Below, piece after piece: positions 44,344 to 63,989 of a DNA stretch of 64,000 bases. Each line of letters starts with the position of its first letter. Within the stretch, counting starts at the first letter, position 1. This stretch comes from Rhodobacterales bacterium HTCC2255 (GTDB lineage: Bacteria; Pseudomonadota; Alphaproteobacteria; Rhodobacterales; Rhodobacteraceae): NCBI GenBank assembly GCA_000153745.1, contig DS022282.1, positions 850,027 to 914,026 on the forward strand. The letters run 5' to 3'. The position numbers and the translations under genes were made by a program. Below the pieces are notes generated by a model. The model saw only the letters and a program-made list of their open reading frames with translations, did not search any database and was not told the DNA's origin.

Positions 44344-44627
44344 TTTTATCCTCTAAATATGGTTCGTAAAATCTTTGCTATAAATAAATTGATAATTTAA
44401 CATTTTTTATTCACACATTTATAAATTCGCCGTTTTTAATCTTAAAAAAGTTATGACTTTAGATACTTTTAGACACTTGCATGTATCTTTTAGTTATGTT
44501 CCTGTGAGTAAGCTCCACACAAGATGTCGGAATTGCGTTTTTTTGCTTCGTAGCAATGCAAACTGAACTTAAAGCTGTGGGCAATAAAGGCCTTAAATCT
44601 GGCCAAAGATTAAATAGGGAGACTATT

Positions 44628-45596: not shown

Positions 45597-45610
45597 AATG
45601 GATTAAGATT

Positions 45611-45644
45611 CCCCGCGGACTAAATATAGCCCGCGGGGTTTTAA
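45611..45644 (+). terminator. Stem-loop after the proX-like gene
   Basis: Perfect 8-bp stem CCCCGCGG (45611-45618) and CCGCGGGG (45631-45638) with a 12-nt loop and a short T4 run. Located between binding protein and permease genes of one operon, it is probably a partial terminator or 3' stabiliser. Confidence 0.6.
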
Positions 45645-45660
45645 TATAGGGAGAGTTTCA

Positions 45661-46692: not shown

Positions 46693-46702
46693 GACTGATA
46701 TA

Positions 46703-47930: not shown

Positions 47931-48410
47931 TCAATGCGTCATACCTCTTGGGTTATGTGATGATATTATAGGTATAGGAAATCGGTCCAACATTAATCTT
48001 AGTCCAAGACCAATATCCTCAGAATAGCTTACTATCTCTTTTACTAAATTACCTGAAACTAAATTAAATGCTAAAAGTTCTGCATCTTTGATATTACCCA
48101 TCGCTGCAAGAGAGATCATATTTGCAACAACACTTTCATCACCACCAAAACATTTACAATTTAATTCATGATGCATTATTTTTCTTCTAGATTGGGTTGC
48201 AAGCTTGATATAAAATTCTTCAAATTTGTTTGAATAATAAAGACCATGATCCTCCCCAAAAGCTAATAAAAAATCCTTTTTGAGAGCTTGTCTTGTTTCT
48301 AATGAACTTGCCATCATCCGAAAATATACAATTACAGACATTTCCAAAAGTGGCAATTCGTCCATTTGCCCAACCGGTGCACCACCTCTAAATTTTTGAT
48401 GTATAGTCAT
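47931..48410 (-). CDS. Conserved-looking hypothetical protein (159 aa)
   Basis: Soluble 159-residue protein without signal or membrane helix. It opens MTIHQKFRGGAPVGQMDELPLLE, which I associate loosely with an uncharacterised rhodobacterial family. A His/Cys cluster HHELNCKCFGGDE (about residues 80-92) might bind metal. It is convergent with proV and precedes no obvious partner. The codon use and composition look native. Function unknown. Confidence 0.6.
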   Translation of the reverse strand: MTIHQKFRGGAPVGQMDELPLLEMSVIVYFRMMASSLETRQALKKDFLLAFGEDHGLYYSNKFEEFYIKLATQSRRKIMHHELNCKCFGGDESVVANMISLAAMGNIKDAELLAFNLVSGNLVKEIVSYSEDIGLGLRLMLDRFPIPIISSHNPRGMTH

Positions 48411-48628: not shown

Positions 48629-49336
48629 TTAACTAAGCAACCAACCACCATCAACATCTACAGTCGTTCCAGTTACAAACTGGTTCTTAATCACGTACAT
48701 AAGCCCTTCAGCCACTTCTTCTGACGTTCCAGCTCTTGGTATTAGATTATCTTTTGTCATATTTTCGTATAACTTTTCTCTCTCAGTTCCTGTAAGAGTA
48801 ACCATTGGAGTATTAATTGTTCCTGGAGAAACAATATTAATTCTTATTCTGGGAGAAATCTCTTTTGCTAATGCACGAGCCATCGCCTCCACTGCACCTC
48901 CAACAGAAGAAAGCGCAATTTGACCAGGCCTACAGTTTCGTGCTGGAGAACCCGATACAAGAGTAATTGAGCCGCCATCTGTTACATGTTTTGCTCCATG
49001 GCGTACAACATTTGCATATCCCCAAAGTTTATCAAAAGATCCTTTAAAGCCATCCATATCCATTTCTAAGAATGGTCCAATAGCTCGTTCACCACCAGTA
49101 GCTGAACTTATCAAAATATCAAAAGGAGCAAGCTTTTCTAAAAGCTTCTTAACACTCATTTCATCTCTAACGTCACAAGCCACAAATTTAACCCCATTTG
49201 GTAGTTGTGATTTTTTCTCAGATGATCGTCCTATAGCAACAACTTCTGTACCAGCAATTTGCAGCATCTTAACTGTTGCTAGACCAATCCCAGATGTGCC
49301 GCCAAATACTATTGCTTTTTTATTAATTAAATCCAT
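48629..49336 (-). CDS. Short-chain dehydrogenase-like protein lacking the YxxxK motif
   Basis: 235-residue Rossmann-fold SDR with the cofactor loop GGTSGIG (12-18) and the C-terminal PGTINTPM and VTGTTVDVDGGWL elements. The catalytic region reads PGQIALSSVGGAVEAMARAL, with neither Tyr nor Lys at the usual YxxxK spacing (positions near 141 and 145). It may be catalytically atypical or a binding protein. It is the last gene of the SnoaL-ABC operon, 33 bp after the RraA-like gene. An AT-rich inverted repeat overlaps its stop. Confidence 0.8.
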   Translation of the reverse strand: MDLINKKAIVFGGTSGIGLATVKMLQIAGTEVVAIGRSSEKKSQLPNGVKFVACDVRDEMSVKKLLEKLAPFDILISSATGGERAIGPFLEMDMDGFKGSFDKLWGYANVVRHGAKHVTDGGSITLVSGSPARNCRPGQIALSSVGGAVEAMARALAKEISPRIRINIVSPGTINTPMVTLTGTEREKLYENMTKDNLIPRAGTSEEVAEGLMYVIKNQFVTGTTVDVDGGWLLS

Positions 49337-49369
49337 CTGGAATATCCTTATTCTTTACTATCAATTTTC

Positions 49370-50062
49370 TTATGTTCGGGCTTTCTCAAAATCATTCCAA
49401 GCCGTTTCAAATGCATCAAAATCAAAGCCCTTTTTACGTGCTGGATCCAATATCAACCTTTCTGTTTGCTGCATTTTCAAAATTGAGGTTTCTAAGTTAT
49501 CTATAACATCAGTAGGAACTACGACTGCACCATGCCGATCAGCATGTACTAAATCACCCGACTTTATATTCATCCCAAAAATATTTATTGGCTGGTTAAC
49601 ACTGCGCACATGCACAAACCCATGGCTTGGGCCTATACTTCCAGCAACAACAGGAAAACCTTCTGCCATATCACCTAAATCCCTCATTACACCATTAGTA
49701 AGCGCACCTGACATACCGAAACCTTTATGGATAGTTGTATTTACTTCGCCCCAGAAGGCTCCAATACAATTTGGATAATCCAGATCTTCGACCACTGCAA
49801 TTGACGGCTTAACATTTTCTGACATTGCCTTGTAATAATTCATACGACGCTCTCTAATTACAGAAACTGCTTCTGTAGGAGGTTCAATTGCCGCTATTTG
49901 AGCAGTGACTGCATAGCCAACAATGACACCTTTTGTATCAGAGGCAAGCATAGTTCCTCTCGTAAAATCATTGAAGCCTCTCTTACCTTGGGCAACCTCT
50001 ATTGCATTACAAACCGTTGGAGTGTCCACAGATTGTAATAAATTTAAAAGTGATATTTTCAT
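49370..50062 (-). CDS. RraA-like / class II pyruvate aldolase family protein
   Basis: 230 residues of the RraA/HMG-aldolase fold. Typical marks: TPTVCNAIEVA near the start, GALTNGVMRDLGDM with the Arg-Asp pair, and GDLVHADRHGAVVVP. In catabolic operons such proteins are usually metal-dependent aldolases or decarboxylases acting on 4-hydroxy-2-oxo acids, not RNase E inhibitors. The start is ATG 50062, overlapping the hydrolase stop (ATGA) with ribosome site GGAGG. Likely a carbon-carbon cleavage step of the unknown pathway. Confidence 0.8.
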   Translation of the reverse strand: MKISLLNLLQSVDTPTVCNAIEVAQGKRGFNDFTRGTMLASDTKGVIVGYAVTAQIAAIEPPTEAVSVIRERRMNYYKAMSENVKPSIAVVEDLDYPNCIGAFWGEVNTTIHKGFGMSGALTNGVMRDLGDMAEGFPVVAGSIGPSHGFVHVRSVNQPINIFGMNIKSGDLVHADRHGAVVVPTDVIDNLETSILKMQQTERLILDPARKKGFDFDAFETAWNDFEKART

Positions 50063-50754
50063 GTATCCTCCAGCCAACTTGCAAGCGCCATAGTTGTAAT
50101 TTTTGGTTGTTCCAATGTTGGAAGATGGCCCGCATCTTCTATGATTTCTAATTTACTATTTTCTAATAGAGTATGCATTAATTCGTGACGTTCAAGCGGG
50201 CATAAAACATCATGCCTACCACAAAGCACTAAAGCTGGTCTCTTATATGATCCTAGCGTATTTTTTTGATCAACACGATCTCGAAGCGCAATGGATTGGC
50301 GAATAAATGCATCAGGTCCAATATCAAGCGCCATATCCATGCACAGTTTTAATATCTCAGTTTTTCTAACCCCATCAAAAAGGTAATTTGGCTTCATTTC
50401 ATCACGGATTATTTCTTTGAGTTGCCCATTTTTAATTGCATCTATTTGCGGGCCCCGCCGCTTTAATACATCAGGCAACTCAGCAAGAGGATTTGTGTCA
50501 AGTAAAGCTAAACGCTCAACCCTCTCTGGTGCTTGAGATACAATTTCCATTGCTACTATCCCACCCATTGAAAGTCCTGCTAATGCAAAAACTGGCGGTG
50601 CATTATTTAAGACATCAGAAGCCAATTCTGAAATTGTTTCATGATCAGTAATTTTTGCAAAATGTACTTCTCTTCGTTTAGACAGTTCATTTATTTGGGA
50701 AGCAAAAAGACGTTCATCACACATCATTCCAGGTAGCAAAACAAGAGGTGTCAT
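50059..50754 (-). CDS. Alpha/beta-fold hydrolase
   Basis: 231 residues. Catalytic triad visible: Ser62 (GLSMGG), Asp182 (GRHDVLCP) and His210 (AGHLPTLE). The oxyanion region is LLPGMMCDERLF. It could open a lactone or an ester formed earlier in the pathway. It overlaps the MetE-like gene by 4 bp and the RraA-like gene by 4 bp, so all three are co-translated. Confidence 0.85.
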   Translation of the reverse strand: MTPLVLLPGMMCDERLFASQINELSKRREVHFAKITDHETISELASDVLNNAPPVFALAGLSMGGIVAMEIVSQAPERVERLALLDTNPLAELPDVLKRRGPQIDAIKNGQLKEIIRDEMKPNYLFDGVRKTEILKLCMDMALDIGPDAFIRQSIALRDRVDQKNTLGSYKRPALVLCGRHDVLCPLERHELMHTLLENSKLEIIEDAGHLPTLEQPKITTMALASWLEDT

Positions 50755-51875
50755 GAGGCTAAAGCAGCGCCCTCGGATAAAGATTTGAGTTTTGCATAAG
50801 CAATTTGTGGGTCAACAGCTCCAAAGCCCGCAAAAGTACCAAATCCACAATCTGACCCTGCAATTACTCTATCTTTTCCAACTATATTCGCAAATCTCTC
50901 AATTCTTTGTGCGACAAGTTCTGGGTGTTCAATAAAATTGGTCGTAGTATCGACCACGCCGGGAACTAATACCTTGTTGTCAGGAATTTCAGATTTTCTA
51001 TCTCTGAATACTGTCCATTCATGCGCATGTCTTGGATTGGAAGTTTCAAATAATAAGTAACCAGCGTTTGCAGACATCAAGGTAGAAAACATTTTATCCA
51101 TTGGAATATCACAGCAATGAGGCCCTTCGTAATTTCCCCAACATATATGAATCCTAACTTTATCTTCTGGAACGTCTTTTAACGCATAATTCAAAGCTTC
51201 GACATGAGAAGCTGCAACTTTAAGAAATTCATCGTCAGTTAAATCATTAAAAAGCATATGCCTAGAGAGTGCTAAATCTGGGCAATCCAATTGCAAATCT
51301 AATCCAGATGCTACGATTGTTTCATATTCTGTTTTCATCGCATCCGCTAATGCAGATAAATATTCTTCTCGTGTCTTATAAAAATCATTTTGTAAAAATA
51401 AAGAAATTACACCAGGAGAGGCAGCATTCATAAAACCTCTTGTTCTTCCATGTGCAGACATTGCCGCCTTTAAATTAGTAATATCTTTTTGTAATTCCCC
51501 CTGCCCTTTTGAAGAAACGGGCCCAGTACACATGGGTCTAGCATATTGAGGTGTGCCTCCTTCATTTGCAAGGCGTTCTAAAAATGTTGGAAACATTTTT
51601 AGATCAGCTGGAGCATTTCGAGGGCTATCACCCGAAAAGCCTGTATAACGATCCTTTACATAAGTTGCATATGATATTTTTGAAGTTTCACCATCACTAA
51701 CAATATCAATTCCAGATTCTGTTTGTTTTCCAACAGTATCATGCACTGCTTTTGTCATTGCTTCATCAAATGATGTTTCATCATAATTCTCATTATTTTC
51801 ACGAGCAAATATGAAATCAACAACCTCCTGTGATCTAGGTAGACTGCCAACATGCGAAGTAAGGATTCTTGTCAT
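50751..51875 (-). CDS. Core MetE-like zinc methyl/alkyl-transfer protein
   Basis: 374-residue protein matching the C-terminal (catalytic) domain of cobalamin-independent methionine synthase, without the N-terminal half. VGSLPR at residues 9-14 and a zinc set His243, Cys245, Glu277 and Cys343 are present. Relatives include core-MetE enzymes and epoxyalkane:coenzyme M transferase, all activating a thiol on zinc. In a sugar-type catabolic operon its role is unclear; thiol-dependent transfer or demethylation is conceivable. No metF or methionine genes are nearby. Confidence 0.8.
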   Translation of the reverse strand: MTRILTSHVGSLPRSQEVVDFIFARENNENYDETSFDEAMTKAVHDTVGKQTESGIDIVSDGETSKISYATYVKDRYTGFSGDSPRNAPADLKMFPTFLERLANEGGTPQYARPMCTGPVSSKGQGELQKDITNLKAAMSAHGRTRGFMNAASPGVISLFLQNDFYKTREEYLSALADAMKTEYETIVASGLDLQLDCPDLALSRHMLFNDLTDDEFLKVAASHVEALNYALKDVPEDKVRIHICWGNYEGPHCCDIPMDKMFSTLMSANAGYLLFETSNPRHAHEWTVFRDRKSEIPDNKVLVPGVVDTTTNFIEHPELVAQRIERFANIVGKDRVIAGSDCGFGTFAGFGAVDPQIAYAKLKSLSEGAALAS

Positions 51876-51895
51876 TTTTCTTCTCTCTTATTATT

Positions 51896-52864
51896 TTAAT
51901 TTTTAGTCCATGTTGGGCCAGCAGGATCATCATTAGATTTTACACGGTACATACTAGCTTCACCAGCCATTGATGGTTCAAGTTTGTGTGAAAATCCAGC
52001 AGGTAAAATACATGTATCACCAGGGTTTAATGTAACTGTATAATTTTCCCATTTCAGCAACCAATGTCCGCGCATCGGCATCAGAACAATTGAGTCCTTA
52101 AAAGTTAAAACCTCATCATGTAATGATCCTCGAGTGATGAAATCCATTTCAAACCCTGGTTTATCTGGTAACATTGCGTCTTCACCAATTACTTTTATAG
52201 GTGATTTTCCTGCTAAACCCATTAAATCTAGGTATCGAGCTACGTGCCTTGGAATGACATCAATAGCTGGTGGTTCAGGCATTTTCGCTAATTTTTCATC
52301 TGATAATATCGGCATTGGTGAAATACCTTCAGGCAATTTTTGACCCTTTTTACTGTCGTAAAGCTTGCTATTATCCCCTAAAATAAGGCCATGCTCTGCA
52401 GCATCCTGAATAACTTGAGGTGCCCATGTTACGCCACCACCAGCATCATCGCCTCCTAAAACAGCCATTATCATTCCATAATCTAAGCCTATATTCTCAA
52501 ATCCACGAAATATCCCCGTCGGTATATTTATTATATCACCCTCTTCTAAAACTACTTCACCAGCTTTACCCCACCGTCCCCAAAAAAACCTCCATCTGCC
52601 TTTTAGAACAAAAAAGACTTCAGCAGTGGTATGGCTGTGTAAAGAGTTTCTACATCTTGGCGGTTGGCCGGCTGCGCCAATATTAAACCCTGGTGTATCT
52701 TTTATATGTACATGCTGATCTGGGCTCTCAGAAACGCCACCACCAATTATGGTGAAATTCTCTTTTTGGTCACTGCCAGGAGTGTGTGCATCAATAAACG
52801 CAGTTTTGCATGGAATTAAATCTCCATACCTAACAATACGTGCTTCTAGTTCTTCTGATGTCAT
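51896..52864 (-). CDS. Bicupin-domain protein
   Basis: 322 residues with two cupin barrels. The first (about 70-135) has the metal-type motif H76-S-H78-x3-E82, but the closing His is not evident (IPTGIFRGF). The second (about 235-305) has RGHWLLKW and LNPGDTCILPAGFSHKLEP. The build recalls gentisate-dioxygenase-like or sugar-isomerase bicupins, but I cannot place it. Both flanking genes are adjacent within about 20 bp, consistent with one operon. Confidence 0.75.
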   Translation of the reverse strand: MTSEELEARIVRYGDLIPCKTAFIDAHTPGSDQKENFTIIGGGVSESPDQHVHIKDTPGFNIGAAGQPPRCRNSLHSHTTAEVFFVLKGRWRFFWGRWGKAGEVVLEEGDIINIPTGIFRGFENIGLDYGMIMAVLGGDDAGGGVTWAPQVIQDAAEHGLILGDNSKLYDSKKGQKLPEGISPMPILSDEKLAKMPEPPAIDVIPRHVARYLDLMGLAGKSPIKVIGEDAMLPDKPGFEMDFITRGSLHDEVLTFKDSIVLMPMRGHWLLKWENYTVTLNPGDTCILPAGFSHKLEPSMAGEASMYRVKSNDDPAGPTWTKN

Positions 52865-52868
52865 TTTA

Positions 52869-53837
52869 CTATCCTGTCTTCATTGCAATTTGTTTCCAAA
52901 TCGATGTTTCATCATAAAGGGTATATTCTCTTCGTATCCCCCATGGGCCAAATTCCACGTGGCTTGCACCCATAACATGAACTTCAGCTCCAGTAGGCTT
53001 TCCAAAAGCACCCCAACCGTCATGTTTTCCTGTCAAACTCCAACGAATAGCAGCTCTAGGAGGCATTAATGGGTCTTCTCTTCCTATTTGATGGTCTATA
53101 GAAAAAGTTGCTGATGGAAATGAAGCTCGTAATTTAGTCCAAAAACCATCAACACCATCTGATGAATATAATTCACTCCCACCAGGGTAGAAACCTGTCA
53201 CAGCTCGATCATATTCTACAGGAATTACATTCAAATCAGCAGACATAATTCTATTTAATATTTCAGAATACTTCTTACCCCAATCATCATCATTTCCACG
53301 ACCAGTATACGGTCCAGTTTTATCAATAGATGGGTGGAAAGGCTTTATACATTTTCCAGGACCACCCTCTCTCTCGATAAGATCTATTGCATACTCTTTT
53401 GGGTCCCAACCTAATTGGCGTACCACAGCCCCTTGGTCTCTAATTAACCACTCATCATTAATTTGATTATTTATTGCATGACAGTCTGCAATCACTCTAT
53501 AACGTAGTTTCTTACCTGAAGCTTTTCCATAAACACCATCACCTAGGTGTGTTGCAGTGGTTAAAATTCTATGAGAAGAAAGCATCCCTTCTTCTGGAGA
53601 TCCAGACCATATAACATCCTCACCCAAAAGTCTCCGGTCAGGAAATTCAGCCAATGTTGACATTGTTGCAGCTATAACTCCGTCATTCCCAAAAACAATT
53701 GAACCAGGTGATCTCACTGGAATATCTTTAGAGTAATAATGATTAAGTGTTGCCAATCCTCTATCTTCCCAAATTTCTTTAGTGATGCCTAAGATATAAT
53801 CAGGGAAATCTTTAAATTGATCTGAAAAACCTTTCAT
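52869..53837 (-). CDS. Two-domain SnoaL/NTF2-like protein (D)
   Basis: 322-residue protein with two NTF2-like halves, the first to about residue 160 (VRSPGSIVFGNDGVIAATMSTLAEFPDRRLLGED) and the second from about 195 (NVIPVEYDRAVTGFYPGGSEL, then IRREYTLYDETSIWKQI). The start is ATG 53837, overlapping the LacI stop (ATGA) and preceded by AAGGATG. It is the most divergent of the four SnoaL-like proteins here. SnoaL-fold enzymes catalyse aldol cyclisation, hydration or isomerisation; the reaction here is unknown. Confidence 0.75.
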   Translation of the reverse strand: MKGFSDQFKDFPDYILGITKEIWEDRGLATLNHYYSKDIPVRSPGSIVFGNDGVIAATMSTLAEFPDRRLLGEDVIWSGSPEEGMLSSHRILTTATHLGDGVYGKASGKKLRYRVIADCHAINNQINDEWLIRDQGAVVRQLGWDPKEYAIDLIEREGGPGKCIKPFHPSIDKTGPYTGRGNDDDWGKKYSEILNRIMSADLNVIPVEYDRAVTGFYPGGSELYSSDGVDGFWTKLRASFPSATFSIDHQIGREDPLMPPRAAIRWSLTGKHDGWGAFGKPTGAEVHVMGASHVEFGPWGIRREYTLYDETSIWKQIAMKTG

Positions 53838-54853
53838 GAGGTCCATCCTTTCGGTATTTTTGCAGAGCTACGGATAATTAATGGGCTTTCTACCTTAATA
53901 TGCTTTGGCTCTTGTGATGGGTTGGTAATTTTATCCAATATAAGAGCAACTGTTTCATCTACCATTATATTTGATCTTTGACGCATAGTTGTAAGATCAT
54001 ATGCCTCTAATGATGCTGGGGGAACATCATCATAACCAATAATGCTAACTTCCTGTGGAATCTTTATATTCAGTTCGCCACGCAATACATCCATGACAGC
54101 AAACGCCATTGAATCCTGAACAACGAATACAGCATCAGGATGATCTGGCCTATCAAACATTTCTCGCGCAGCTTCTTTTGCTCGGCTTACTGTAAAATCA
54201 CCTAATGCATGGGCTGCTAGGTCTTGCCCTGCTTCTTTCAATCCTTCACGAAAGCCTGCTTCACGATCACGGTGGGTTGATGCACCTTCCCAACCCCCAA
54301 TATAAGCAATTTTTTTATGCCCAGCAGAAACAAAAAATTTTGATACAGTTTTTCCACCTTCGAAATTATCAGATGTAACTGCTGAATGTTCTTTAGAATC
54401 TTGCGCTCTGTTAAAAAGGACTACAGGTACTCCAGCAGCTTCACATCGTGCTGTAAGATCACTTGAAATACTTACACTAGCAGCAATTATTCCATCTACT
54501 TGGTAATCCAACAAACCGTCAATAACATGATCTGTAGACTCCGTATCATTTGATGCCATGAATACTAACACATGGTAGCCTAAAGTTTGTAATGCATTAG
54601 AAAGTTTTTCTAAGGCTACAGGATAAAAATAATTATCTAAATAAGCTACAACAAGGCCGATAATTCGACTTTTTCCAGTAATCAAGGATCGAGCTAATAT
54701 ATTTGGTCTATACCCCAGTTCAATAGCAGCGGCACGAACCTTTAGCATAGTTTTTGAGCTCGCTGAAGCTCCAGGAGTAAATACTCTACTCACTGCAGAT
54801 TGACTAACTCCAGCGAGTTTAGCTACTTGTAGTGAAGTTACTCTTTCTACCAT
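53834..54853 (-). CDS. LacI-family transcriptional regulator
   Basis: 339 residues. Helix-turn-helix at about 7-26 (LQVAKLAGVSQSAVSRVF), hinge LGYRPNILARSL, and a sugar-binding-protein-like core with IGLVVAYLDNYFYP and SIIGYDDVPPASLEAYDLTT. The start is ATG 54853, overlapping the SDR stop (TGATG); a longer frame begins with TTG. It lies inside the operon it probably controls. A matching 20-bp palindrome with a central CG lies at 62888-62907, upstream of the ATPase and the divergent SnoaL gene. Confidence 0.9.
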   Translation of the reverse strand: MVERVTSLQVAKLAGVSQSAVSRVFTPGASASSKTMLKVRAAAIELGYRPNILARSLITGKSRIIGLVVAYLDNYFYPVALEKLSNALQTLGYHVLVFMASNDTESTDHVIDGLLDYQVDGIIAASVSISSDLTARCEAAGVPVVLFNRAQDSKEHSAVTSDNFEGGKTVSKFFVSAGHKKIAYIGGWEGASTHRDREAGFREGLKEAGQDLAAHALGDFTVSRAKEAAREMFDRPDHPDAVFVVQDSMAFAVMDVLRGELNIKIPQEVSIIGYDDVPPASLEAYDLTTMRQRSNIMVDETVALILDKITNPSQEPKHIKVESPLIIRSSAKIPKGWTS

Positions 54854-55611
54854 CAGCCCGCTGTCCAACCCCCATCTATAATCATATGAGTTCCCGTAAC
54901 CATCGATGACGCATCAGATGCTAAATAAACCGCAGCTCCCATAATATCTTCCACTTCACCAATACGTCCAAGTTTAATTTTTTGATTAATGAGTTGGGCC
55001 ATTTCAATATTTTCAAAAGTTTTTTCAGTTAAAGGTGTGCGAATAAATGTTGGGCAAATAGTATTAATACGAATATCAAATGAGCCCCATTCAATTGCCA
55101 TACTTTTCACCATACCCTCAATTGCATGCTTTGAAGAAGAATACACTGTTCGATCAATCCCCCCCACATGTCCCATTTGTGATGAAATATGTATAATCGA
55201 ACCACTTATTTTAGATGCTTTCATAGCTTTTGCAGCATACACTGATAGAAAATATGCAGACCTTAAATTTAAATTCATTACTGCATCAAAATTTTCAGGT
55301 GTTGTGTCAAACGCTGGGGAATGTCGGGCCATTCCAGCAGAATTTATTACTATATCATATGGCTTTTCCATTACTTTTTCTAATGCAAACAAGTCTGTTT
55401 GGTCCAAAACCAATGCCTCTGCATCATAGCCATTTGAATTTATCGCTGAGACTGTCTTATCTAAGAGATCAATTCCTCGAGCTGCACAAATCACTTTTGC
55501 ACCAGATTGTGCCATTGCTGCTGCACACGCTTGGCCAATACCTGAAGATGCGCCAGTTACCAATGCGCGTTTACCTTTTAATGAAAATGATGGGAGCAAA
55601 GGTAAAATCAT
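54853..55611 (-). CDS. Short-chain dehydrogenase/reductase
   Basis: 252-residue classical SDR. Cofactor motif TGASSGIG (about 19-26), NSAGMARHSPAF, catalytic Ser in IIHISSQMG, YSSSK (Tyr-x3-Lys), and a C-terminal GTHMIIDGGW. Probably oxidises a hydroxyl of the imported substrate or reduces a keto intermediate. Coupled by a 4-bp overlap to SnoaL B upstream and by one base to the LacI gene downstream. Confidence 0.9.
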   Translation of the reverse strand: MILPLLPSFSLKGKRALVTGASSGIGQACAAAMAQSGAKVICAARGIDLLDKTVSAINSNGYDAEALVLDQTDLFALEKVMEKPYDIVINSAGMARHSPAFDTTPENFDAVMNLNLRSAYFLSVYAAKAMKASKISGSIIHISSQMGHVGGIDRTVYSSSKHAIEGMVKSMAIEWGSFDIRINTICPTFIRTPLTEKTFENIEMAQLINQKIKLGRIGEVEDIMGAAVYLASDASSMVTGTHMIIDGGWTAG

Positions 55612-56660
55612 ATACTTACCCCAATTGGATAAGAAACTTTACCTGATACACGTGCTTTATTAAATTCACGTAAACGTGAAAAAACATCAACGCCAATTTG
55701 GGAGTAAACATCAAGCAAATCTACTAAAACCCAATTCTCACGTATTAGGTTATTTTCTACTCTCCAGAAATCCAGACTTCGCATAGTAATTTTTTGTCCT
55801 GAAGGAGCAATGCCAAGCCAACCATCTCCTGAAACAGTCATTTGCATATTTGGCCAACCAGTGGCTATTACATATGGCCCATCACCAAAAAAATGACAGC
55901 TTAGAGTACCCGTCGTTCCACCTTTTCTATCAGGCAAAGCCTTAAGAAATGGAATTTGATGCCAATTTCTAAACCCATCAAGGCCTCTCATTGAACCAAT
56001 TCCTGCTGGGCCATACCAGTTGACACATGGATGCCAATATTCTTCAGCCTTCATTATTTCAGGGCCACCTTCAGAGGGATGGCGCGATAAGTTAGTAAGC
56101 ATCTCAATTACAACATCTAAACTTTCTGTTCCATGAGAAGACGCTCTATTAGCTGATGTCAATCCATCTTGGCTAGCAGGCCCAGGTATAAACATTTCAC
56201 ACCCCAAGCTTGGAGACATTGGCCATGCTCCTGCTTGCATCATAAGTTCTGGTATGTCCCATATTGCTTGAACTTCAATAATCTTATCATCCTCAAAACA
56301 ATAAAACTCATGAAAACGCATATGCACTAAATGTCCTGTTGGAGGTATTTCCAAAAATGGTCCAACAAAAGTTCCTACATAGGACCCACAACACCCTACC
56401 CAATCTTTACCTTCGATTGTTTTGCCACTCACGACGATTGTATCCCGTCGCTCAACATTAGGGATTGCATCGACTAGGGGAGCAAAACAATTATCATAAA
56501 ATTCATTTTTTAATACATCACCAAAGGGATGGCACATCTGAATTTTAACTTCTTGTGAAAATATATTTTGAATATACGACCGCACAGCCAATTCATCGAA
56601 ATCATACATTGCTTTTAAAAACAGCTCTATACTTTCTCTATTTTTCTGCGCGCTATTCAT
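55608..56660 (-). CDS. Two-domain SnoaL/NTF2-like protein (B)
   Basis: 350 residues with two NTF2-like domains (about 5-165 and 185-330). The second shares strings with the other family members in this locus: NWYGPAGIGSMRGLDGF, GWPNMQM, GWLGIAPSGQK and the end motif ENWVLVDLLDVYSQIGVDVF. Such paralogy with the proteins at 57989 and 63003 indicates local duplication. It starts right after the HisD-like stop. Function unknown; the fold allows acid-base chemistry on a bound metabolite. Confidence 0.78.
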   Translation of the reverse strand: MNSAQKNRESIELFLKAMYDFDELAVRSYIQNIFSQEVKIQMCHPFGDVLKNEFYDNCFAPLVDAIPNVERRDTIVVSGKTIEGKDWVGCCGSYVGTFVGPFLEIPPTGHLVHMRFHEFYCFEDDKIIEVQAIWDIPELMMQAGAWPMSPSLGCEMFIPGPASQDGLTSANRASSHGTESLDVVIEMLTNLSRHPSEGGPEIMKAEEYWHPCVNWYGPAGIGSMRGLDGFRNWHQIPFLKALPDRKGGTTGTLSCHFFGDGPYVIATGWPNMQMTVSGDGWLGIAPSGQKITMRSLDFWRVENNLIRENWVLVDLLDVYSQIGVDVFSRLREFNKARVSGKVSYPIGVSI

Positions 56661-57989
56661 TTATTCTCCAACTTTACGAAAAGCTGCTCCTTCGCCATAA
56701 GGGACATTAATTCCACCATACCGTCGAACTCGGATATTACATTGTTCCGCATGCCCAACAAAACCTTCTAACATGCATAATCGACTACCATATTCACCTA
56801 CCAGTGTAGCAGCCTCATCTGTGGTTATCTTTTGATAGGAATGTGTCTTTAAGAATTTCCCAACCCATAGTCCGCCTGTATAACGACCAGCTTTTTTAGT
56901 TGGCAATGTATGATTGGTACCAATCACCTTGTCACCATTTGAAACATTAGTTCGAGCCCCCAAGAATAGAGCGCCATAACAAGTCATTTTTTCTAAAAAC
57001 CAATCATCCCTATCAGTCATTACTTGAACATGTTCAGATGCAATATCATCTGCAACTGTTAACATTTCATCATATGAGTCACATAAAATTACTTCCCCAT
57101 AATCAGCCCAACTTACAGAAGCTGTATCAGCAGTAGGTAATATTTCTAATAACCTATCAATTTCAGTAAGCGTATCTTCTGCTAATTTTCGTGAGTTAGT
57201 CAATAAAACTGCTGGACTATTATACCCATGCTCAGCTTGCCCTAATAAATCAGTTGCGCATAATTCACCATCAACAGTGTCATCAGCTATGACCATAGTT
57301 TCTGTTGGGCCAGCGAACAAATCAATACCCACGCGCCCAAATAATTGTCTTTTAGCTTCTGCCACATATGCATTTCCAGGACCAACAAGCATATGAACTG
57401 GATTTATAGTTTCAGTACCAATTGCCATAGCACCAACTGCTTGAATTCCTCCCATAACATAAATTTCATGAGCGCCACCCAAATGCATCGCAGCAATAAC
57501 TGCGGCATTAGGCTTACCTTCGAAAGGTGGGGTACAGGCAACAATTCTAGGAACACCCGCAACTGTTGCAGTAGCAATCGACATATGAGCAGACGCTACC
57601 ATTGGAAACTTCCCACCGGGCACATAACAACCAACTGATTGTACTGGAATATTTTTATGCCCTAAAATAACACCAGGAATTGTTTCAATTTCAATATCAA
57701 GCATACTATCTCTTTGTGCTTGAGCGAAATTACGCACTTGCTCTTGGGCAAATTTAATATCAGAAAGCTCACGATCAGTTAGCGTTGCTATCAAATCAGA
57801 TATCTCTTTTTCTGATAGCTTAAAATTCTTTGGTGAATAATTATCAAATTTTGTTGAAAGCTCACGCACTGCAGCATCACCGTTAATCTCAATATTTTTT
57901 AATGTTTCCTCAACAACAATTTTTGTTTTTGCGTCATCCTCAGCTCTTTCTGCATCCGGTTTACCGCTCTTAAGATATTCTATAGTCAT
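56661..57989 (-). CDS. Histidinol-dehydrogenase-like (HpsN-type) oxidoreductase
   Basis: 442 residues of the HisD family. Zinc ligands align as Gln251, His254, Asp353 and His413, with the catalytic Glu-His at 319-320 (ASEHVQV). The substrate-contacting text differs from the true HisD in this window (IGTNHTLPT instead of IGGPNHVLPT; LEGFVGH instead of LEAHGLS). HisD-like enzymes such as HpsN oxidise a primary alcohol to the acid in two NAD-dependent steps. Here it likely oxidises the imported polyol or an intermediate. Starts overlap the SnoaL C stop by one base. Confidence 0.85.
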
Positions 57990-58522
57990 TAATTACTCCC
58001 AATTTCAGGTGGAATTTTCGTGCCATCATCGAAAGCCTCCCACCCATGTCCGTTAAAAACATCAACCCCCAATTGCGCAAGGACATGTGGAAAATCAACC
58101 ATTACCCAATTGTCTGTTATTTTGCCATTTTCGACTTTCCAAAAATCCATGTATCGGATTTGTATTTTTTTTCCAGTAGCTTCTACACCCATAAATGTTC
58201 CTGAGTGCACTGCCTCTTGGCGCCCAAATGCTGCTGCCCATTCACCCATATACAATCGTGCTTCATCAATGCAGACTTTTTCAGAAAATGCTGCCTGAAA
58301 TGGTTTTTGCCAATTATTTTGGAATTCTTTTAAACCTTTTTTTGTTCCACAACCTGTATTACCCATCCAGCTAAAACCATGACTAAAAAATTCACCTATA
58401 TCTGCTATGCGGTGGTCATTTAGCCCATCCACCATACCTTCGATCACTGAACGAGTTTCTTCAGTTTTTGACATATCTGTATTTATAGAAAGCTCTGCCT
58501 GTTTAGGTCTCAAACCACTCAT
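57989..58522 (-). CDS. Single-domain SnoaL/NTF2-like protein (C)
   Basis: 177 residues, one NTF2-like domain. It shares with the paralogues the pattern [17 protein letters not shown], the substrate-side strand [25 protein letters not shown] and the end motif AQLGVDVF. The start overlaps the permease stop (ATGA). As a single domain it resembles the C-terminal half of the two-domain proteins and may be the minimal catalytic unit. Confidence 0.78.
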
Positions 58523-59400
58523 CCCTTTACAGCTCCTGCAGTTAAGCCACTAACAATTTGGCGTTGGAAAAAAAGAATTAAAACAAAGAGTGGTGCAGTT
58601 GCTGAAACAACTGCAGCAACTGCAAACATTACATTACCCTCTGTTTGTGTTGTTCCTAAAAAACTCGCAATCTTAGGAACCATTGTTTGATTAGATTGAC
58701 TTAACAGTGTCGCAGTCACGGTGAAATCATTGTAAGCTAGTAGAAACGAAAATAATCCTGTGGTGACAACTCCTGGCCACATTACTGGTATAATTACATG
58801 GCGGAATGCCTGAAAGCGAGTGCATCCATCCACCATTGCACTCTCATCCAAATCCTTTGGAATATTAAGAAAAAAACTATGTAACATCCATAAAGTAAAT
58901 GGTTGATTAATAGCTACCATTACAATTATCGCAGTCGGTAGGTGTCCCCAAAGGTTCCACTCAAAAAATGGAAGTAGATATCCAGAGACTAAAGTAATAT
59001 GTGGCATTGCTCTAAATATTAAGGCAAGCATTAAAAGATAAAATGCATACCTTTTTCCTGATCGCGCCAATGCGTATCCACCCAAAGTTCCAAGTGTGAG
59101 TGAAATAACGACAACAGAAAATACTATAATTCCAGTATTAATTGCAGCTTCCCAAAAACTTTTCGTTACCCAAGCACCAAAATATCCATTTCCTGTAAAT
59201 GCTCCACCAGTTTCAATTTGCGTTCGCACTCCAGTAATAGCATTTGTCCAATCTGCTTTTGAGAAAAAATCTCCTTGAACTTTTAAAGATCCCCATAGTG
59301 TCCAGAAAAAAGGGAAGCTAGCCGCAATAATCCAAATTAGGACAAGTCCCCAAATAATTATATTTAATAATGGTGAACGTCGGTGAGCTATATTAGACAT
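58519..59400 (-). CDS. ABC sugar-type permease (MalG-like)
   Basis: 293-residue permease with six helices and the EAA-type cytoplasmic loop AMVDGCTRFQAFRHVIIPVMWPG. Text matches carbohydrate-uptake (CUT1) second permeases, including the N-terminal helix and [29 protein letters not shown]-like end. Works with the adjacent permease, binding protein and ATPase. One-base overlap with the upstream permease. Confidence 0.88.
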   Translation of the reverse strand: MSNIAHRRSPLLNIIIWGLVLIWIIAASFPFFWTLWGSLKVQGDFFSKADWTNAITGVRTQIETGGAFTGNGYFGAWVTKSFWEAAINTGIIVFSVVVISLTLGTLGGYALARSGKRYAFYLLMLALIFRAMPHITLVSGYLLPFFEWNLWGHLPTAIIVMVAINQPFTLWMLHSFFLNIPKDLDESAMVDGCTRFQAFRHVIIPVMWPGVVTTGLFSFLLAYNDFTVTATLLSQSNQTMVPKIASFLGTTQTEGNVMFAVAAVVSATAPLFVLILFFQRQIVSGLTAGAVKG

Positions 59401-60431
59401 CAGACAACCTTCCTATTAAATTCACGCCATGTACGAATTAGAACTGGAATTAATAAAACACTGATACCAATAATGGTTAAAACTGATGTTGCACCAGCAG
59501 AACCAAAGAACTGATCTTCATTGTTGGATATATCATTGTATATAATCCATGAAAGTGAAGTTGCATTTGCTTGCGCTGAGAACCCAACTATTGGTTCAAA
59601 CACTCGAAAATTATCCATTAATTGAATTAATAAAATAAATATAGTTAGTGGCATCAAGTGGGGAAGAACAACATATTTAGTACGCTCCCAACGTGTTGCA
59701 CCATCTATCATTGCAGCTTCAATCGTATCACTTGGAACAGTCTGTAGCCCAGCATAAAACACAATAAAAGCAAATGGAGATGAGTGCCATACACCATAAA
59801 CCATTAGCATAATCCAAGTAAGAGTAGGCGAAGCTTTCAATGAAAGATTAGGATCATCAAATATACGTTGTAAAATTGAACCTATAATTCCTTGTGCATC
59901 AATCATCCAAAATAAAATTAGGGAACCGATGAGTGGTGTCACAATCATTGGTAATAATGAGACAAAAATAGTTGGACCTTTCATCTGTTTAGGTAAACTA
60001 TTCACTCCCAATGCAATCAAAAAGCCAAAGAATAGGACAAAAGGTGTAACCACAAATGTATATGTTAATGTAAAAGCTAATGCTCGATAGAATGGTAAAT
60101 TTAGAGATGTAGAGATGAATTGTGTAATACTTTCACTTTGGGACCAAGCTAGCTTGATCTCTTCAAATGCTAAGTGATTTCGATTTGTGTAAGTCTTAAA
60201 CCCATTAAACTCACCAAGGGGCTTTTCTAATTTTAATCTTTTTGTTTCATCAACATTTATAATTAATTCTTTTTTACACCCAAAAGGACCACAGTTTTCA
60301 ACCTCATTCAAAACTGCTTCGTGTTCTATATGAAGCGATTGCACGACTACCGACACAATAGGCAATGCAATAAACAATAGCATTGTTATTAAAGAAGGTA
60401 ATATAAACCAAAAAAAGTTACGGTTTTTCAT
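59400..60431 (-). CDS. ABC sugar-type permease (MalF-like) with periplasmic loop
   Basis: 343-residue permease. Between helix 1 (about 7-30) and helix 2 (about 115-135) there is an unusual periplasmic stretch of about 80 residues with a Cys47/Cys52 pair (ENCGPFGC), which could form a disulfide. The EAA loop reads AAMIDGATRWERTKYVVLPHLMP. It forms the channel with the MalG-like partner. It follows the binding-protein gene after a strong hairpin. Confidence 0.88.
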   Translation of the reverse strand: MKNRNFFWFILPSLITMLLFIALPIVSVVVQSLHIEHEAVLNEVENCGPFGCKKELIINVDETKRLKLEKPLGEFNGFKTYTNRNHLAFEEIKLAWSQSESITQFISTSLNLPFYRALAFTLTYTFVVTPFVLFFGFLIALGVNSLPKQMKGPTIFVSLLPMIVTPLIGSLILFWMIDAQGIIGSILQRIFDDPNLSLKASPTLTWIMLMVYGVWHSSPFAFIVFYAGLQTVPSDTIEAAMIDGATRWERTKYVVLPHLMPLTIFILLIQLMDNFRVFEPIVGFSAQANATSLSWIIYNDISNNEDQFFGSAGATSVLTIIGISVLLIPVLIRTWREFNRKVV

Positions 60432-60461
60432 CTAAATCGCCAAAAAATTATTAAAAAAATA

Positions 60462-60484
60462 GGAGGAAGCATCACGCTTCCTCC
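60462..60484 (-). terminator. Stem-loop after the sugar-type binding-protein gene
   Basis: Perfect 9-bp stem GGAGGAAGC/GCTTCCTCC (60462-60470 and 60476-60484) with a 5-nt loop, followed on the minus strand by a long T-rich run. It sits between binding protein and permease genes and probably gives partial termination. Confidence 0.75.
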
Positions 60485-60492
60485 CTTTAGTT

Positions 60493-61728
60493 TTACTTCA
60501 AGAAACCTTTTTCTTTAGCAGCTGTGGTATAAGCAGCTTCAACATCAGCTAAAGCTTGCTCAGCACTCTCAGCACCTTGCAAAAAGTCAGAAATTTCTCC
60601 GCCTAGTGCACCGTGCAATGTCCCCATAAATGGTAACATTGGATATGGCGCAGCTCCATTTGCAGCTGTTTCAGAAACACCAGCAGAAGCAGGGCTTGGT
60701 TTGTATCCTTCAACCAACCATACAGCTGCATCGTTGTTTGCTTTAACCATATCAGATGATATTCCATTCATTAAAGCAATAAATGTTGCTTCAGCATCTT
60801 CATCAGATACATTGGTAGAAATACCTATGCCATCCCACCAAAGAGTTGATGCTGGACGTGCTCCATTTCCCCACTTTGGGGCAGCTGATAGGGTCGTATT
60901 TGAAGAAACGCCATCTACTGAACCTTCTCCATCAAGTACTGCACTCCCTCTTGAACCCCACATTGTTGCTAATGCTAAATTTCCAGCTTCCCACTCAGCT
61001 TGAGTAGCGTTTGAGTCATATGTCAAGAAATCAGGATTTGAATAACCAACAAGTGACTTCAGCATGTTTAAAGTTGCAACACCATGATCATTATTTACAG
61101 AAACTTCTGCAGTTCCTGCTTTAAATAAATCTGCACCTGTTCCCATGTACATATTTACAAATTCTTCGCCCAAGTTCCAACCAGCTTTAGTATTTAAAGC
61201 TACTGGATATTCCATTAATCCTGCACTTCGAATTGCTTCTGCAGCAGCAATTACTTCTTCGTAAGTGCCTGGAATATTACTTACCCCAGCTTTATCTAGC
61301 ATGTCTGTTCTAGTAAATAAGTGTTGAGCATTTGCCATGAATGCAACTGCCATTACTTTACCATTTACTGTAATTAACTGGCTCTTATTTAATCCAGCTC
61401 CATGTTCAGCAACCAAATCATCAAGTGACCTTACTAAACCATCATTCATCAATGTTACTAAAGTAGAGTTCGAAACTATTACTGACGAATACTGCGATGG
61501 GTTTGCAGTTAATGCTGCAACCATAATATCTTTATGATCTTTTGTTAAATTTGCTTCAACCTTCACACCATTACCTGCACATTTTGCAGCCTCTGCTGTT
61601 ACAGCTTGAATTGCTGGGAAATCATTTGAAAGAATGCTGACATTACCGCCAGAAATTCCACAATCAGCTATTGCTGAACTTCCCAAAAGCGCGAACGCTC
61701 CCGCGAATGTTATTGTTTTTAGAAACAT
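60493..61728 (-). CDS. ABC sugar-type solute-binding protein
   Basis: 411 residues. Signal peptide MFLKTITFAGAFALLGSSAIA before DCGISGGNVSIL. The fold and text (GKVMAVAFMANAQHLFTRTDML, LWWDGIGISTNV, PMLPFMGTLHGALGGEISDFL) suit CUT1-type binding proteins for sugars, polyols or glycerol-phosphate-like compounds. The ligand is not readable. It is the most abundant product expected, given the hairpin that follows. Confidence 0.85.
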   Translation of the reverse strand: MFLKTITFAGAFALLGSSAIADCGISGGNVSILSNDFPAIQAVTAEAAKCAGNGVKVEANLTKDHKDIMVAALTANPSQYSSVIVSNSTLVTLMNDGLVRSLDDLVAEHGAGLNKSQLITVNGKVMAVAFMANAQHLFTRTDMLDKAGVSNIPGTYEEVIAAAEAIRSAGLMEYPVALNTKAGWNLGEEFVNMYMGTGADLFKAGTAEVSVNNDHGVATLNMLKSLVGYSNPDFLTYDSNATQAEWEAGNLALATMWGSRGSAVLDGEGSVDGVSSNTTLSAAPKWGNGARPASTLWWDGIGISTNVSDEDAEATFIALMNGISSDMVKANNDAAVWLVEGYKPSPASAGVSETAANGAAPYPMLPFMGTLHGALGGEISDFLQGAESAEQALADVEAAYTTAAKEKGFLK

Positions 61729-61794
61729 AAGTTACTCCCTATATTAGTTATCGATATACCTTGATAGAATATATCAGTTGGACCCCCCTTATTC

Positions 61795-61821
61795 GGGGAT
61801 TATATTTGGGGGTTAATCCCC
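61795..61821 (-). terminator. Inverted repeat at the 3' end of the ABC ATPase gene
   Basis: Perfect 8-bp repeat GGGGATTA (61795-61802) and TAATCCCC (61814-61821) overlapping the stop codon of the ATPase gene. No T-run; it may be a processing or stabilising element rather than a terminator. Confidence 0.4.
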
Positions 61822-62862
61822 TATTCGCTCACCTGTTTGATCATCAAACAAATGACAAATTCCTTTTGGCACAGATATGTGAACCATATCACCTATCTCC
61901 ACACGATAATCTTTTGCAGCCTTAACAGAAACCAATTCATTATTTACGCGAACTGTTATCATTGTTGCATCTCCAAGTAATTCCATTGCATAAACTGCAG
62001 CATGAATTTCCCCACCATTTTCAACTATTGATGCGTCTTCAGCACGAAAACCTAATTGTATAGGTCCATCTTTCTGTTTAATTCCTGAAACATTTATAAA
62101 GTCACCTTTAAAGACTTTATTTAGAATTTCACCACGAACTAGATTCATTGCTGGAGAACCAATGAAACTAGCAACAAATGCATTTTCTGGATGGTCATAA
62201 ATATTGGTCGGGCTGCCTACTTGTTGTACGATTCCATCTTTCATAACAACAACTCGATCAGCAAGCGTCATAGCTTCAATTTGATCATGCGTTACATAAA
62301 TAGTTGTAACTTTTAATTCATGGCTCAAATTTTTTATTTGCGCCCTTGTTGATACTCTCAGCTTTGCATCTAAATTTGACAAAGGCTCATCCATAAGAAA
62401 TACATTTGGCTCACGAACAATTGCTCGAGCAAGAGCAACCCTTTGTCTTTGGCCTCCAGATAATTCTGCTGGCTTACGGTGCAAAAAATCATCCAATTCA
62501 ACCATCGCAGAAGCACGCATAACACGTTCTTGATGTTCAGTTTCAGGTATTTTACGAACTTTTAATGGAAACCTTATGTTTTCATAAACATTCATATTTG
62601 GATATAATGCATAAGACTGGAAAACCATCGCCACATCTCGGTCCTTTGGATCAAGATCATTAACGCGCACACCATCTATCAGGATGTCGCCATCCGTTAC
62701 ATCTTCAAGGCCTGCAATCATCCGCATTGTTGTTGTTTTACCACATCCAGAAGGCCCTAATAAAACGAGGAACTCCTGATCTTTAATAGTTAAATTAAAG
62801 TTATCGACACCGACAAATGTGCCCCATCGTTTTGATAAATTATTTAGTTTTATTTCTGCCAT
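61813..62862 (-). CDS. ABC sugar-type ATP-binding protein (UgpC/MalK-like)
   Basis: 349 residues. Walker A GPSGCGKTT (36-44), signature LSGGQRQRVALARA, Walker B VFLMDEPLSNLD, then a TOBE regulatory domain (about 240-349, VQLGFRAED-like text). Start ATG 62862 (MAEIKLNNL) follows GGGGGAATGC; a longer frame begins with TTG. It is the first gene of the operon and lies next to the LacI-type operator, 141 bp from the divergent SnoaL gene. Confidence 0.9.
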   Translation of the reverse strand: MAEIKLNNLSKRWGTFVGVDNFNLTIKDQEFLVLLGPSGCGKTTTMRMIAGLEDVTDGDILIDGVRVNDLDPKDRDVAMVFQSYALYPNMNVYENIRFPLKVRKIPETEHQERVMRASAMVELDDFLHRKPAELSGGQRQRVALARAIVREPNVFLMDEPLSNLDAKLRVSTRAQIKNLSHELKVTTIYVTHDQIEAMTLADRVVVMKDGIVQQVGSPTNIYDHPENAFVASFIGSPAMNLVRGEILNKVFKGDFINVSGIKQKDGPIQLGFRAEDASIVENGGEIHAAVYAMELLGDATMITVRVNNELVSVKAAKDYRVEIGDMVHISVPKGICHLFDDQTGERIGD

Positions 62863-62887
62863 GCATTCCCCCAAATGGTTAAAACCA

Positions 62888-62907
62888 TTTTTGCATACGT
62901 TTGCAAA
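62888..62907. promoter_or_regulatory. LacI-type operator
   Basis: TTTTGCATACGTTTGCAAAA: a 20-bp near-perfect palindrome (one mismatched pair) with the central CG typical of LacI-family sites. It lies in the spacer between the ABC ATPase and the divergent SnoaL gene. A second inverted repeat, AAATGGTT-A-AACCATTT (62873-62889), abuts it. The LacI gene within the operon is the obvious binder. Confidence 0.7.
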
Positions 62908-63002
62908 AAAGATAGACTTTCATTTTCAATTCTGCAAGAATAATTTTACAAAAATATATTTTTTACACTATATCGTTGAAAACCTTTAAGAAGATCTAAC
63001 CC

Positions 63003-63989
63003 ATGTCCAATTATCAAAAAGAAAAACGTATTGTACTGGATTATTATGAGGCACTCGATTCAGCAACAGACGACAGAATCACCCAAGTCTTAGAAGAGTT
63101 CACAGCAAAAAATTACATATGGCGGGCTTTCCACCCATTTGGTCTACAAACTGATGTTAATGAGATTTCTGAACAATGTTGGAAGCCCTTAAAACATGCT
63201 TTAACAAGCATGCAAAGAAGAATGGATATATTTTTCGCGGGTAGTAATTATATTGATGATAATAGTTCTGTATGGGTTTGCTCTATGGGGCATTTAATTG
63301 GATTATTTGATTTACCATGGTTAGGTATCAAGCCAACAAAAAAATTGACTATGCTTAGGTATGCTGAATTCCATAAAATAGAAAATGGAAAAATTTCAGA
63401 AACAGCATTTTACTTTGATATTCCACATTTAATGCTTCAGGCTGGATATTCTCCATTTCCTGATCAAAGAGCTGCTCATTTAATACAGCCAGGGCCAGCT
63501 CCCCATGATTCCTTGTTATTTTCTGATGCTGATTTCACTGAAGGCAAAAAGACAATGGAGGTGATAAATTTCATGATAAAAGATCTAGGCCAATGGCAAA
63601 GTGGCTTGCCACTTGTAGATGAACTTGCCCGCAGTTGGCATAATGATATGATTTGGTGGGGACCTGCTGGAATTGGATCCACTTACACAATTGAGAGATA
63701 TGCAGAACAACACTCGGGACCTTTTAGAGCAGCCTTTAGTGATAGATCAGGGACGGGCCATATAGCTCGAATATCAGAGGGTCATTATGGTGGATTTTTT
63801 GGATGGCCCAATTTTAGTGCAAAACCTACTGGTGGATACCTTGGACTACCACCAAGCGATACAATCGGGGAGTTTAGAGTGATTGATATTTATCGCCGTG
63901 AGGGTGACAAATTAAAAGAAAATTGGATATTTATAGATTTACTGCACTTTTTCAAACAACAAGGCGTTGATATATTAAATAAACTATAA
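63003..63989 (+). CDS. Two-domain SnoaL/NTF2-like protein (A), divergent
   Basis: 328 residues, two NTF2-like domains (about 5-165 and 190-325). The second contains WWGPAGIGSTYTIERY, FFGWPNFSAKPTGGYLGLPP and ENWIFIDLLHFFKQQGVDIL, closely parallel to protein B at 55608. It is the only gene of the locus on the plus strand and shares the LacI operator region. The gene is complete, ending 11 bp before the window edge. Function unknown. Confidence 0.78.
   Translation: MSNYQKEKRIVLDYYEALDSATDDRITQVLEEFTAKNYIWRAFHPFGLQTDVNEISEQCWKPLKHALTSMQRRMDIFFAGSNYIDDNSSVWVCSMGHLIGLFDLPWLGIKPTKKLTMLRYAEFHKIENGKISETAFYFDIPHLMLQAGYSPFPDQRAAHLIQPGPAPHDSLLFSDADFTEGKKTMEVINFMIKDLGQWQSGLPLVDELARSWHNDMIWWGPAGIGSTYTIERYAEQHSGPFRAAFSDRSGTGHIARISEGHYGGFFGWPNFSAKPTGGYLGLPPSDTIGEFRVIDIYRREGDKLKENWIFIDLLHFFKQQGVDILNKL

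Follow-up and report, generated by a model that had tools for sequence, protein, structure and literature searches.

A predicted LacI-controlled catabolic regulon with SnoaL-like proteins and an apparent third type of HisD-like dehydrogenase in Rhodobacterales bacterium HTCC2255

Do 16 adjoining genes of Rhodobacterales bacterium HTCC2255, an organism with a 2.3 Mb genome in two contigs, form a single system for the import and breakdown of one compound? The genes occupy positions 48629-63989 of the 64,000-nucleotide stretch analysed here (the window; contig DS022282.1 of assembly GCA_000153745.1, positions 850,027 to 914,026) and comprise 15 reading frames on the minus strand (48629-62862) and one divergent gene (63003-63989). 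A first-pass annotation of the window had described one LacI-controlled unit of import and catabolism, and all 16 of the genes that it listed are present in this arrangement. We consider it fairly probable that the block, apart from one terminal gene, represents one LacI-repressed catabolic regulon that works by the import-to-cleavage mechanism proposed below. That the genes belong to one regulon is well supported by comparison of sequences across relatives, and one regulon in turn probably means one pathway.

Pfam and NCBIfam models bear out the previously proposed families for every gene: two short-chain dehydrogenases (SDRs), an RraA-like protein, an alpha/beta hydrolase, a Meth_synt_2 protein, a Cupin_2 protein, four SnoaL proteins, a LacI regulator, a Histidinol_dh protein and an ATP-binding cassette (ABC) transporter with two BPD_transp_1 permeases, an SBP_bac_1 binding protein and an ATPase. 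The features are as follows.

62891..62906, no strand assigned: candidate LacI-type operator TTGCATACGTTTGCAA in the divergent promoter, with comparative support
63003..63989, plus strand: SnoaL_D, NTF2-like protein, the divergent gene; two domains suggested by its length
61813..62862, minus strand: ABC transporter ATPase of the CUT1 type with TOBE_2, by family match
60493..61728, minus strand: solute-binding protein, SBP_bac_1; its nearest solved relatives are sugar and polyol binders
59400..60431, minus strand: ABC permease 1, by family match
58519..59400, minus strand: ABC permease 2, by family match
57989..58522, minus strand: SnoaL_C, single-domain NTF2-like protein; the presumed SnoaL catalytic residues are absent
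56661..57989, minus strand: HisD-like dehydrogenase of an apparent third clade with a GKFPM motif, by family, motif and tree
55608..56660, minus strand: SnoaL_B, double-domain NTF2-like protein, by family and structural model
54853..55611, minus strand: SDR2, short-chain dehydrogenase with an intact YxxxK, by family and motif
53834..54853, minus strand: LacI-family regulator, by family match
52869..53846, minus strand: SnoaL_A, double-domain NTF2-like protein, by family match
51896..52864, minus strand: bicupin; N-terminal cupin with H76xH78 and E82, second motif without His
50751..51875, minus strand: MetE-like protein, catalytic domain alone, Zn and homocysteine residues kept
50059..50754, minus strand: alpha/beta hydrolase, closest to enol-lactonase and BioH-type models; S62, D182 and H210 invariant
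49370..50062, minus strand: RraA-like aldolase or decarboxylase; R127-D128 invariant
48629..49336, minus strand: SDR1, a lineage-specific co-directional neighbour without YxxxK

Nine of the 14 junctions on the minus strand overlap or abut, the remaining gaps measure 4, 20, 33, 61 and 84 bp, and 140 bp separate the divergent genes. ATG starts at 50062 (RraA), 54853 (LacI) and 62862 (ATPase) are the more likely ones for these genes.

The integrity of the gene set was assessed around the bicupin gene in the best 80 of 556 relatives, the nearest of which come from a Rhodobacteraceae metagenome-assembled genome (MAG; 95%) and an uncultured Amylibacter (91%). With genes counted at more than 40% identity, and with loci limited to 10 kb or cut by the end of a contig, so that all counts are lower bounds, at least 64 of the 80 loci contain LacI, 57 HisD-like, 56 SDR2, 55 SnoaL_A, 46 each MetE-like and SnoaL_B, 41 each RraA and ATPase, 40 each of the two permeases, 39 hydrolase, 37 SnoaL_C, 36 the binding protein, five SnoaL_D and one SDR1. 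Since SDR1 is found in a single relative, it does not belong to the conserved unit, which is 49370-63989; this protein, which the first-pass annotation had counted as part of the system, probably lies outside the pathway and is to be left out. Among 20 hand-picked 20-kb stretches from the same order, 13 contain a permease, HisD-like, SDR2, LacI, SnoaL_A and cupin genes together.

A lack of co-occurrence elsewhere had been named as grounds for abandoning the unit, and the opposite was found in 292 genomes of the order, searched with cut-offs of 1e-120 for HisD-like, 1e-60 for SnoaL_C and 1e-150 for MetE-like. The MetE-like gene is present in 119 of the 145 genomes that contain the HisD-like gene vs 3 of the 147 that do not (122 in all), and SnoaL_C in 88 of 145 vs 1 of 147 (89 in all), with Fisher p values of 3e-51 and 3e-34, respectively, which overstate the independence of genomes with shared ancestry. 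In 102 of the 122 genomes, the MetE-like and HisD-like genes are at most 15 kb apart; in 17, the MetE-like gene is farther away or on another contig, and the remaining three are those without a HisD-like match. Beyond the order, the HisD-like clade is represented in 47 of 337 genomes of the class, five of which are also in the order sample, and on MAG contigs that bear the labels Granulosicoccaceae and Marinobacterium, both of which we take to be gammaproteobacteria. More distant versions of the gene set are encoded in genomes of 1.4-1.6 Mb (L155, L156).

The second line of evidence comes from the operator. The LacI-type palindrome TTGCATACGTTTGCAA lies inside the 140-bp divergent gap and is the single match to TTGCANRCGYNTGCAA at one mismatch in the whole genome. 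In relatives, 127 loci yield 55 matches to the strict pattern TTGCANNCGNNTGCAA, and mononucleotide shuffling leaves none; the reversed pattern has none in 139 loci. The shared palindrome stands within 400 bp upstream of a pathway gene at 60 of 65 distinct sites in relatives (median, 70 bp), as membership in a LacI-controlled regulon implies, and the first genes behind the strict sites are unrelated to one another, namely, the ATPase with SnoaL_D, the ATPase, the binding protein, the HisD-like gene and a stand-alone cupin. An operator-like motif precedes genes or operons for the transporter, the HisD-like and MetE-like proteins and the cupin, including cases in which these are scattered in the genome. 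It was further observed within about 100 bp upstream of the stand-alone bicupin gene in L077, L081, L087, L097, L110 and L123; the neighbours of the stand-alone cupins gave no clue to the substrate.

One regulon predicts additional sites at the missing pieces wherever the cupin stands alone or the set is split, and a search of 20 genomes yielded 54 sites vs 5 for the reversed control. Of 13 regions fetched around such sites, 12 have pathway genes at the site: transporter operons (L202, L204, L205, L206, L209, L212 and L214) and HisD-like operons (L203, L207, L208 and L210), each behind its own site, and a cupin-hydrolase pair (L213, with the same site as in L077). Among 13 leftover sites, those in L218, where two sites precede a full cluster, and L224, ahead of an operon of MetE-like, hydrolase and RraA genes, also fit. 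Sites other than TTGCAACCGGTTGCAA, a variant that was set aside, are located at pathway genes in 25 of 38 cases. The TTGCAACCGGTTGCAA sites probably belong to another LacI-type regulon, which is our assumption; this exact sequence recurs in G120, G043, G182, G624, G626, G631, G632 and G635, and two of its sites (L222, L223) have no pathway genes at them.

Several observations weigh against a single regulon. Taken singly, the operator of this genome is not above chance, so that the evidence is comparative: at one mismatch, two places in the genome fit the reversed control pattern, and at two mismatches, equally many matches arose in 23 of 100 shuffled versions of the window. Five of the 65 distinct sites (in L136, L211, L157 and twice in L102) have no pathway gene within 400 bp; a strict site is present in 44 of 112 HisD-like loci and missing from 68, partly because the stretch ends first, and none was found at the stand-alone cupin of L107. 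In the 20-genome search, the region L211 and the other 10 of the 13 leftover sites are without pathway genes, 13 of the 38 sites other than TTGCAACCGGTTGCAA are not at pathway genes, and 16 of the 54 are exactly TTGCAACCGGTTGCAA. The neighbourhoods were chosen by hand, both the 20 from the order and those from the class (20 of 47 genomes), and five of the 150 genomes that pass 1e-120 were dropped because their matches, near 1e-121, are HpsN-type by motif. Some clusters that look complete (L060, L062) lack the MetE-like gene, and cupin, HisD-like and RraA genes occur outside the set too. The motif is, then, not perfectly specific, yet it locates scattered pieces of the set. That the block is a chance string of unrelated co-directional genes, for which the separate occurrence of cupin, HisD-like and RraA genes in relatives could be cited, appears extremely unlikely given the co-occurrence, the conserved neighbourhoods and the operator shared in split genomes, the three observations that support the LacI-controlled unit proposed by the first-pass annotation.

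What the regulon degrades can be approached through its HisD-like dehydrogenase. The closest solved relatives of this protein are HpsN chains, as expected if the gene set were a variant of the pathway for the sulfonate 2,3-dihydroxypropane-1-sulfonate (DHPS), with the HisD-like protein as HpsN and SDR2 as HpsO. In the hps operons of Roseobacteraceae, too, an SDR, a transporter and a regulator are found, according to the available part of PMC11131964, which describes roseobacter HpsN. Beyond the HisD fold, the Zn ligands and the catalytic Glu, His and Asp of HpsN are present (Q251, H254, E319, H320, D353 and H413) and the Asp-Lys pair is completed by Lys354, with all seven residues invariant in 13 rows and aligned with those of HpsN (8v35). 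However, HpsN has the motif G-R-Y-A/S-H, in which His binds the sulfonate (as given in the accessible portion of PMC11382572), whereas the HisD-like protein reads G-K-F-P-M, with Met in place of this His, which is found in 0 of 28 proteins. In the tree, the HisD-like proteins form their own clade (100/98), separate from the HpsN clade that includes 8v35 and 8wwe (100/99); the two are grouped as sisters at 89/66, with 8v35 flagged as a long branch. The same genome contains a GRYAH-type (HpsN-type) gene at G000:C1:665822-667078 (L171), so a DHPS-type enzyme is probably encoded there, away from the block, and unlike the hps operons, the set described here has a different importer and adds SnoaL, cupin, MetE-like, hydrolase and RraA genes. 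Motif, clade and the separate HpsN-type gene speak against HpsN identity, and a DHPS pathway is very unlikely.

The HisD-like protein belongs to Histidinol_dh and exceeds the TIGR00069 cut-off (424 vs 243.8 bits), as would HisD itself, but is only about 35-37% identical to it. True HisD rows read PGG[LQ]ASYPS and fall into another clade, and the protein has neither this motif nor this position; the true hisD lies at 38205-39521 of the window, adjoining a murA-like gene, 18 kb away. Because of the GKFPM motif, its own clade and the presence of both other types in the genome, the protein is predicted to be a third type, neither HisD nor the sulfonate-specific HpsN. The earlier assignment of an oxidation of an alcohol to an acid to this enzyme is plausible, with the catalytic residues kept. 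A second HisD-type gene, about 45% identical, occurs in L085, L101, L114 and L132; it has a GRYPLL motif and a clade of its own, which speaks against HpsN for this gene as well, and it lies near or beside the cluster, next to a reading frame that looks amidase-like by eye. For the HisD-like gene of Rhizobium pRL8, the part of PMC3333776 that was available gives no hint of a substrate.

The MetE-like protein consists of the catalytic MetE domain only and is the single Meth_synt_2 gene found in the genome. The core methionine synthases MesA-MesD likewise have this domain without the folate domain (PMC7857596, from which, as far as available, the Zn ligands and homocysteine contacts were taken); unlike these, the MetE-like gene is located within a catabolic operon. 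The Zn ligands His, Cys, Glu and Cys (H243, C245, E277 and C343) are kept in 14 of 14 proteins and align, although weakly, with 3rpd, and so are the homocysteine contacts S11, E63 and D197, of which E63 and D197 align with 3rpd and S11 was mapped through a weak 1ypx segment only. MesX was not found in the genome, in a search the control of which matched nowhere either. The retention of the Zn and homocysteine residues suggests that the protein performs methyl transfer, a step outside the scheme of the first-pass annotation.

Four SnoaL proteins had been listed, and four are present; Pfam detects two SnoaL stretches in SnoaL_A and two in SnoaL_B, SnoaL_C is single-domain, and in SnoaL_D, which at 328 aa is as long as the double-domain forms, one stretch was detected, the second domain being suggested by length. 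Over about 140-150 columns, the model of SnoaL_B (pLDDT 82) aligns with NTF2/SnoaL structures of a single domain. The proposed role of these proteins in rearrangement or cyclization is unsupported: for SnoaL_C, the one protein compared (with 1sjw), what we take to be the catalytic residues of SnoaL, His107 and Asp121, align with Asp126 and Val140. SnoaL polyketide cyclases share the fold and the Pfam family, whereas the present set has two-domain forms and an importer of the sugar type, and its 16 genes include no polyketide synthase.

The bicupin, the hydrolase and the RraA-like protein could together suggest the degradation of an aromatic or pyrone-like ring, by a ring-cleaving dioxygenase, a PcaD-like enol-lactonase and a LigK-type aldolase, respectively. 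The top fold matches of the bicupin model (pLDDT 76) include quercetin, 3-hydroxyanthranilate and salicylate dioxygenases, but TM-scores are only about 0.4-0.5, as for many double cupins, and the matches to oxalate decarboxylases and seed storage proteins are equally good, so there is no clear functional match. Of the HxH...E...H metal site, H76, H78 and E82 are invariant, but the second motif reads IFRGFEN, without its His. The best NCBIfam models of the hydrolase, in which Ser62, Asp182 and His210 are kept, are PcaD types, and RraA weakly matches ligK_PcmE; all these NCBIfam matches are below the cut-off. RraA keeps Arg127-Asp128, a pair that is presumably catalytic in related aldolases. The profile of the binding protein has sugar binders as its first matches, among them proteins for maltose, trehalose, sulfoquinovosyl-glycerol and sorbitol, which again argues against a ring compound, and this alternative seems unlikely.

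Under the regulon hypothesis, the CUT1 importer would take in a sugar- or polyol-like compound, and this compound or an early product would release LacI from the operator. A larger or methylated compound may then be worked down to a small hydroxy acid or diol by the SnoaL/NTF2 proteins, the bicupin, the MetE-like protein, which would pass a methyl group to homocysteine, and the hydrolase, which would act on a lactone or ester. The HisD-like enzyme could oxidize a CH2OH group to a carboxylate with NAD+ at its Zn site, with Met in the place of the sulfonate-binding His of HpsN; SDR2, with its YxxxK intact, could convert a secondary alcohol to a ketone; and RraA may decarboxylate or split the resulting keto acid, possibly giving the pyruvate-type product proposed earlier. 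The order of these steps is likewise conjectural. The last three enzymes would constitute a tail module, which is also found apart from the other genes: HisD-like, SDR2 and RraA genes are found without SnoaL genes in L052, L145, L146 and L161 (a 5-kb contig), and TRAP (tripartite ATP-independent periplasmic) importers are followed by HisD-like and SDR genes in L061 and L060.

A more specific version of this tail would process four-carbon sugar acids, from threonate or erythronate to tartrate (HisD-like) and on to oxaloglycolate (SDR2), followed by decarboxylation by RraA. The retention of Lys354 with the loss of the sulfonate-binding His would suit a carboxylate, but many other hydroxy acids suit as well, and direct evidence is lacking. 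One hint in its favour is that in L127 (10001-14436), LacI, cupin and RraA genes are followed by genes for a 3-oxo-tetronate kinase and a 3-oxo-tetronate 4-phosphate decarboxylase, both of which exceed NCBIfam cut-offs, and by an isomerase-like gene whose best model, below the cut-off, is for 2-oxo-tetronate. However, this stretch has neither HisD-like nor SDR2 genes, and the HisD-like cluster is on another contig of the same genome (L214), so that a sugar acid tail is improbable.

With LacI-regulated CUT1 operons for sugars and polyols, the regulon as proposed shares an ABC importer, LacI, a palindromic operator with central CG and dehydrogenases, but its 16 genes include neither a sugar kinase nor an isomerase nor a glycosidase. 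Word searches of open-licence PubMed Central papers matched the enzyme set to no described pathway, in agreement with the first-pass annotation, which recognized none, and the part of PMC10130141 that was available contains nothing tied to this cluster. The wide retention of the genes suggests a common marine substrate. It is conceivable, although doubtful, that the set represents a widespread, undescribed marine pathway for a common algal compound that is methylated and sugar- or polyol-like. In it, the MetE-like protein would pass the methyl group directly to homocysteine, the skeleton would be opened by the double-domain NTF2 proteins, and the freed alcohol would be oxidized to an acid by a third functional class of the HisD superfamily. 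Because the regulator, the operator-like site, the binding protein and the enzymes are tied together, one binding-protein screen or one promoter could reveal the substrate. Marine genes annotated as histidinol or sulfopropanediol dehydrogenase may be neither.

Beyond SDR1, the window contains, at a distance of 218 bp, a reading frame of 159 aa (47931-48410) that has no Pfam match and is present in one of the 80 relatives at more than 40% identity. It is followed, at 44556-47755, by what the translations suggest is a glycine-betaine/proline-type ABC transporter, with a binding protein, a permease and an ATPase.

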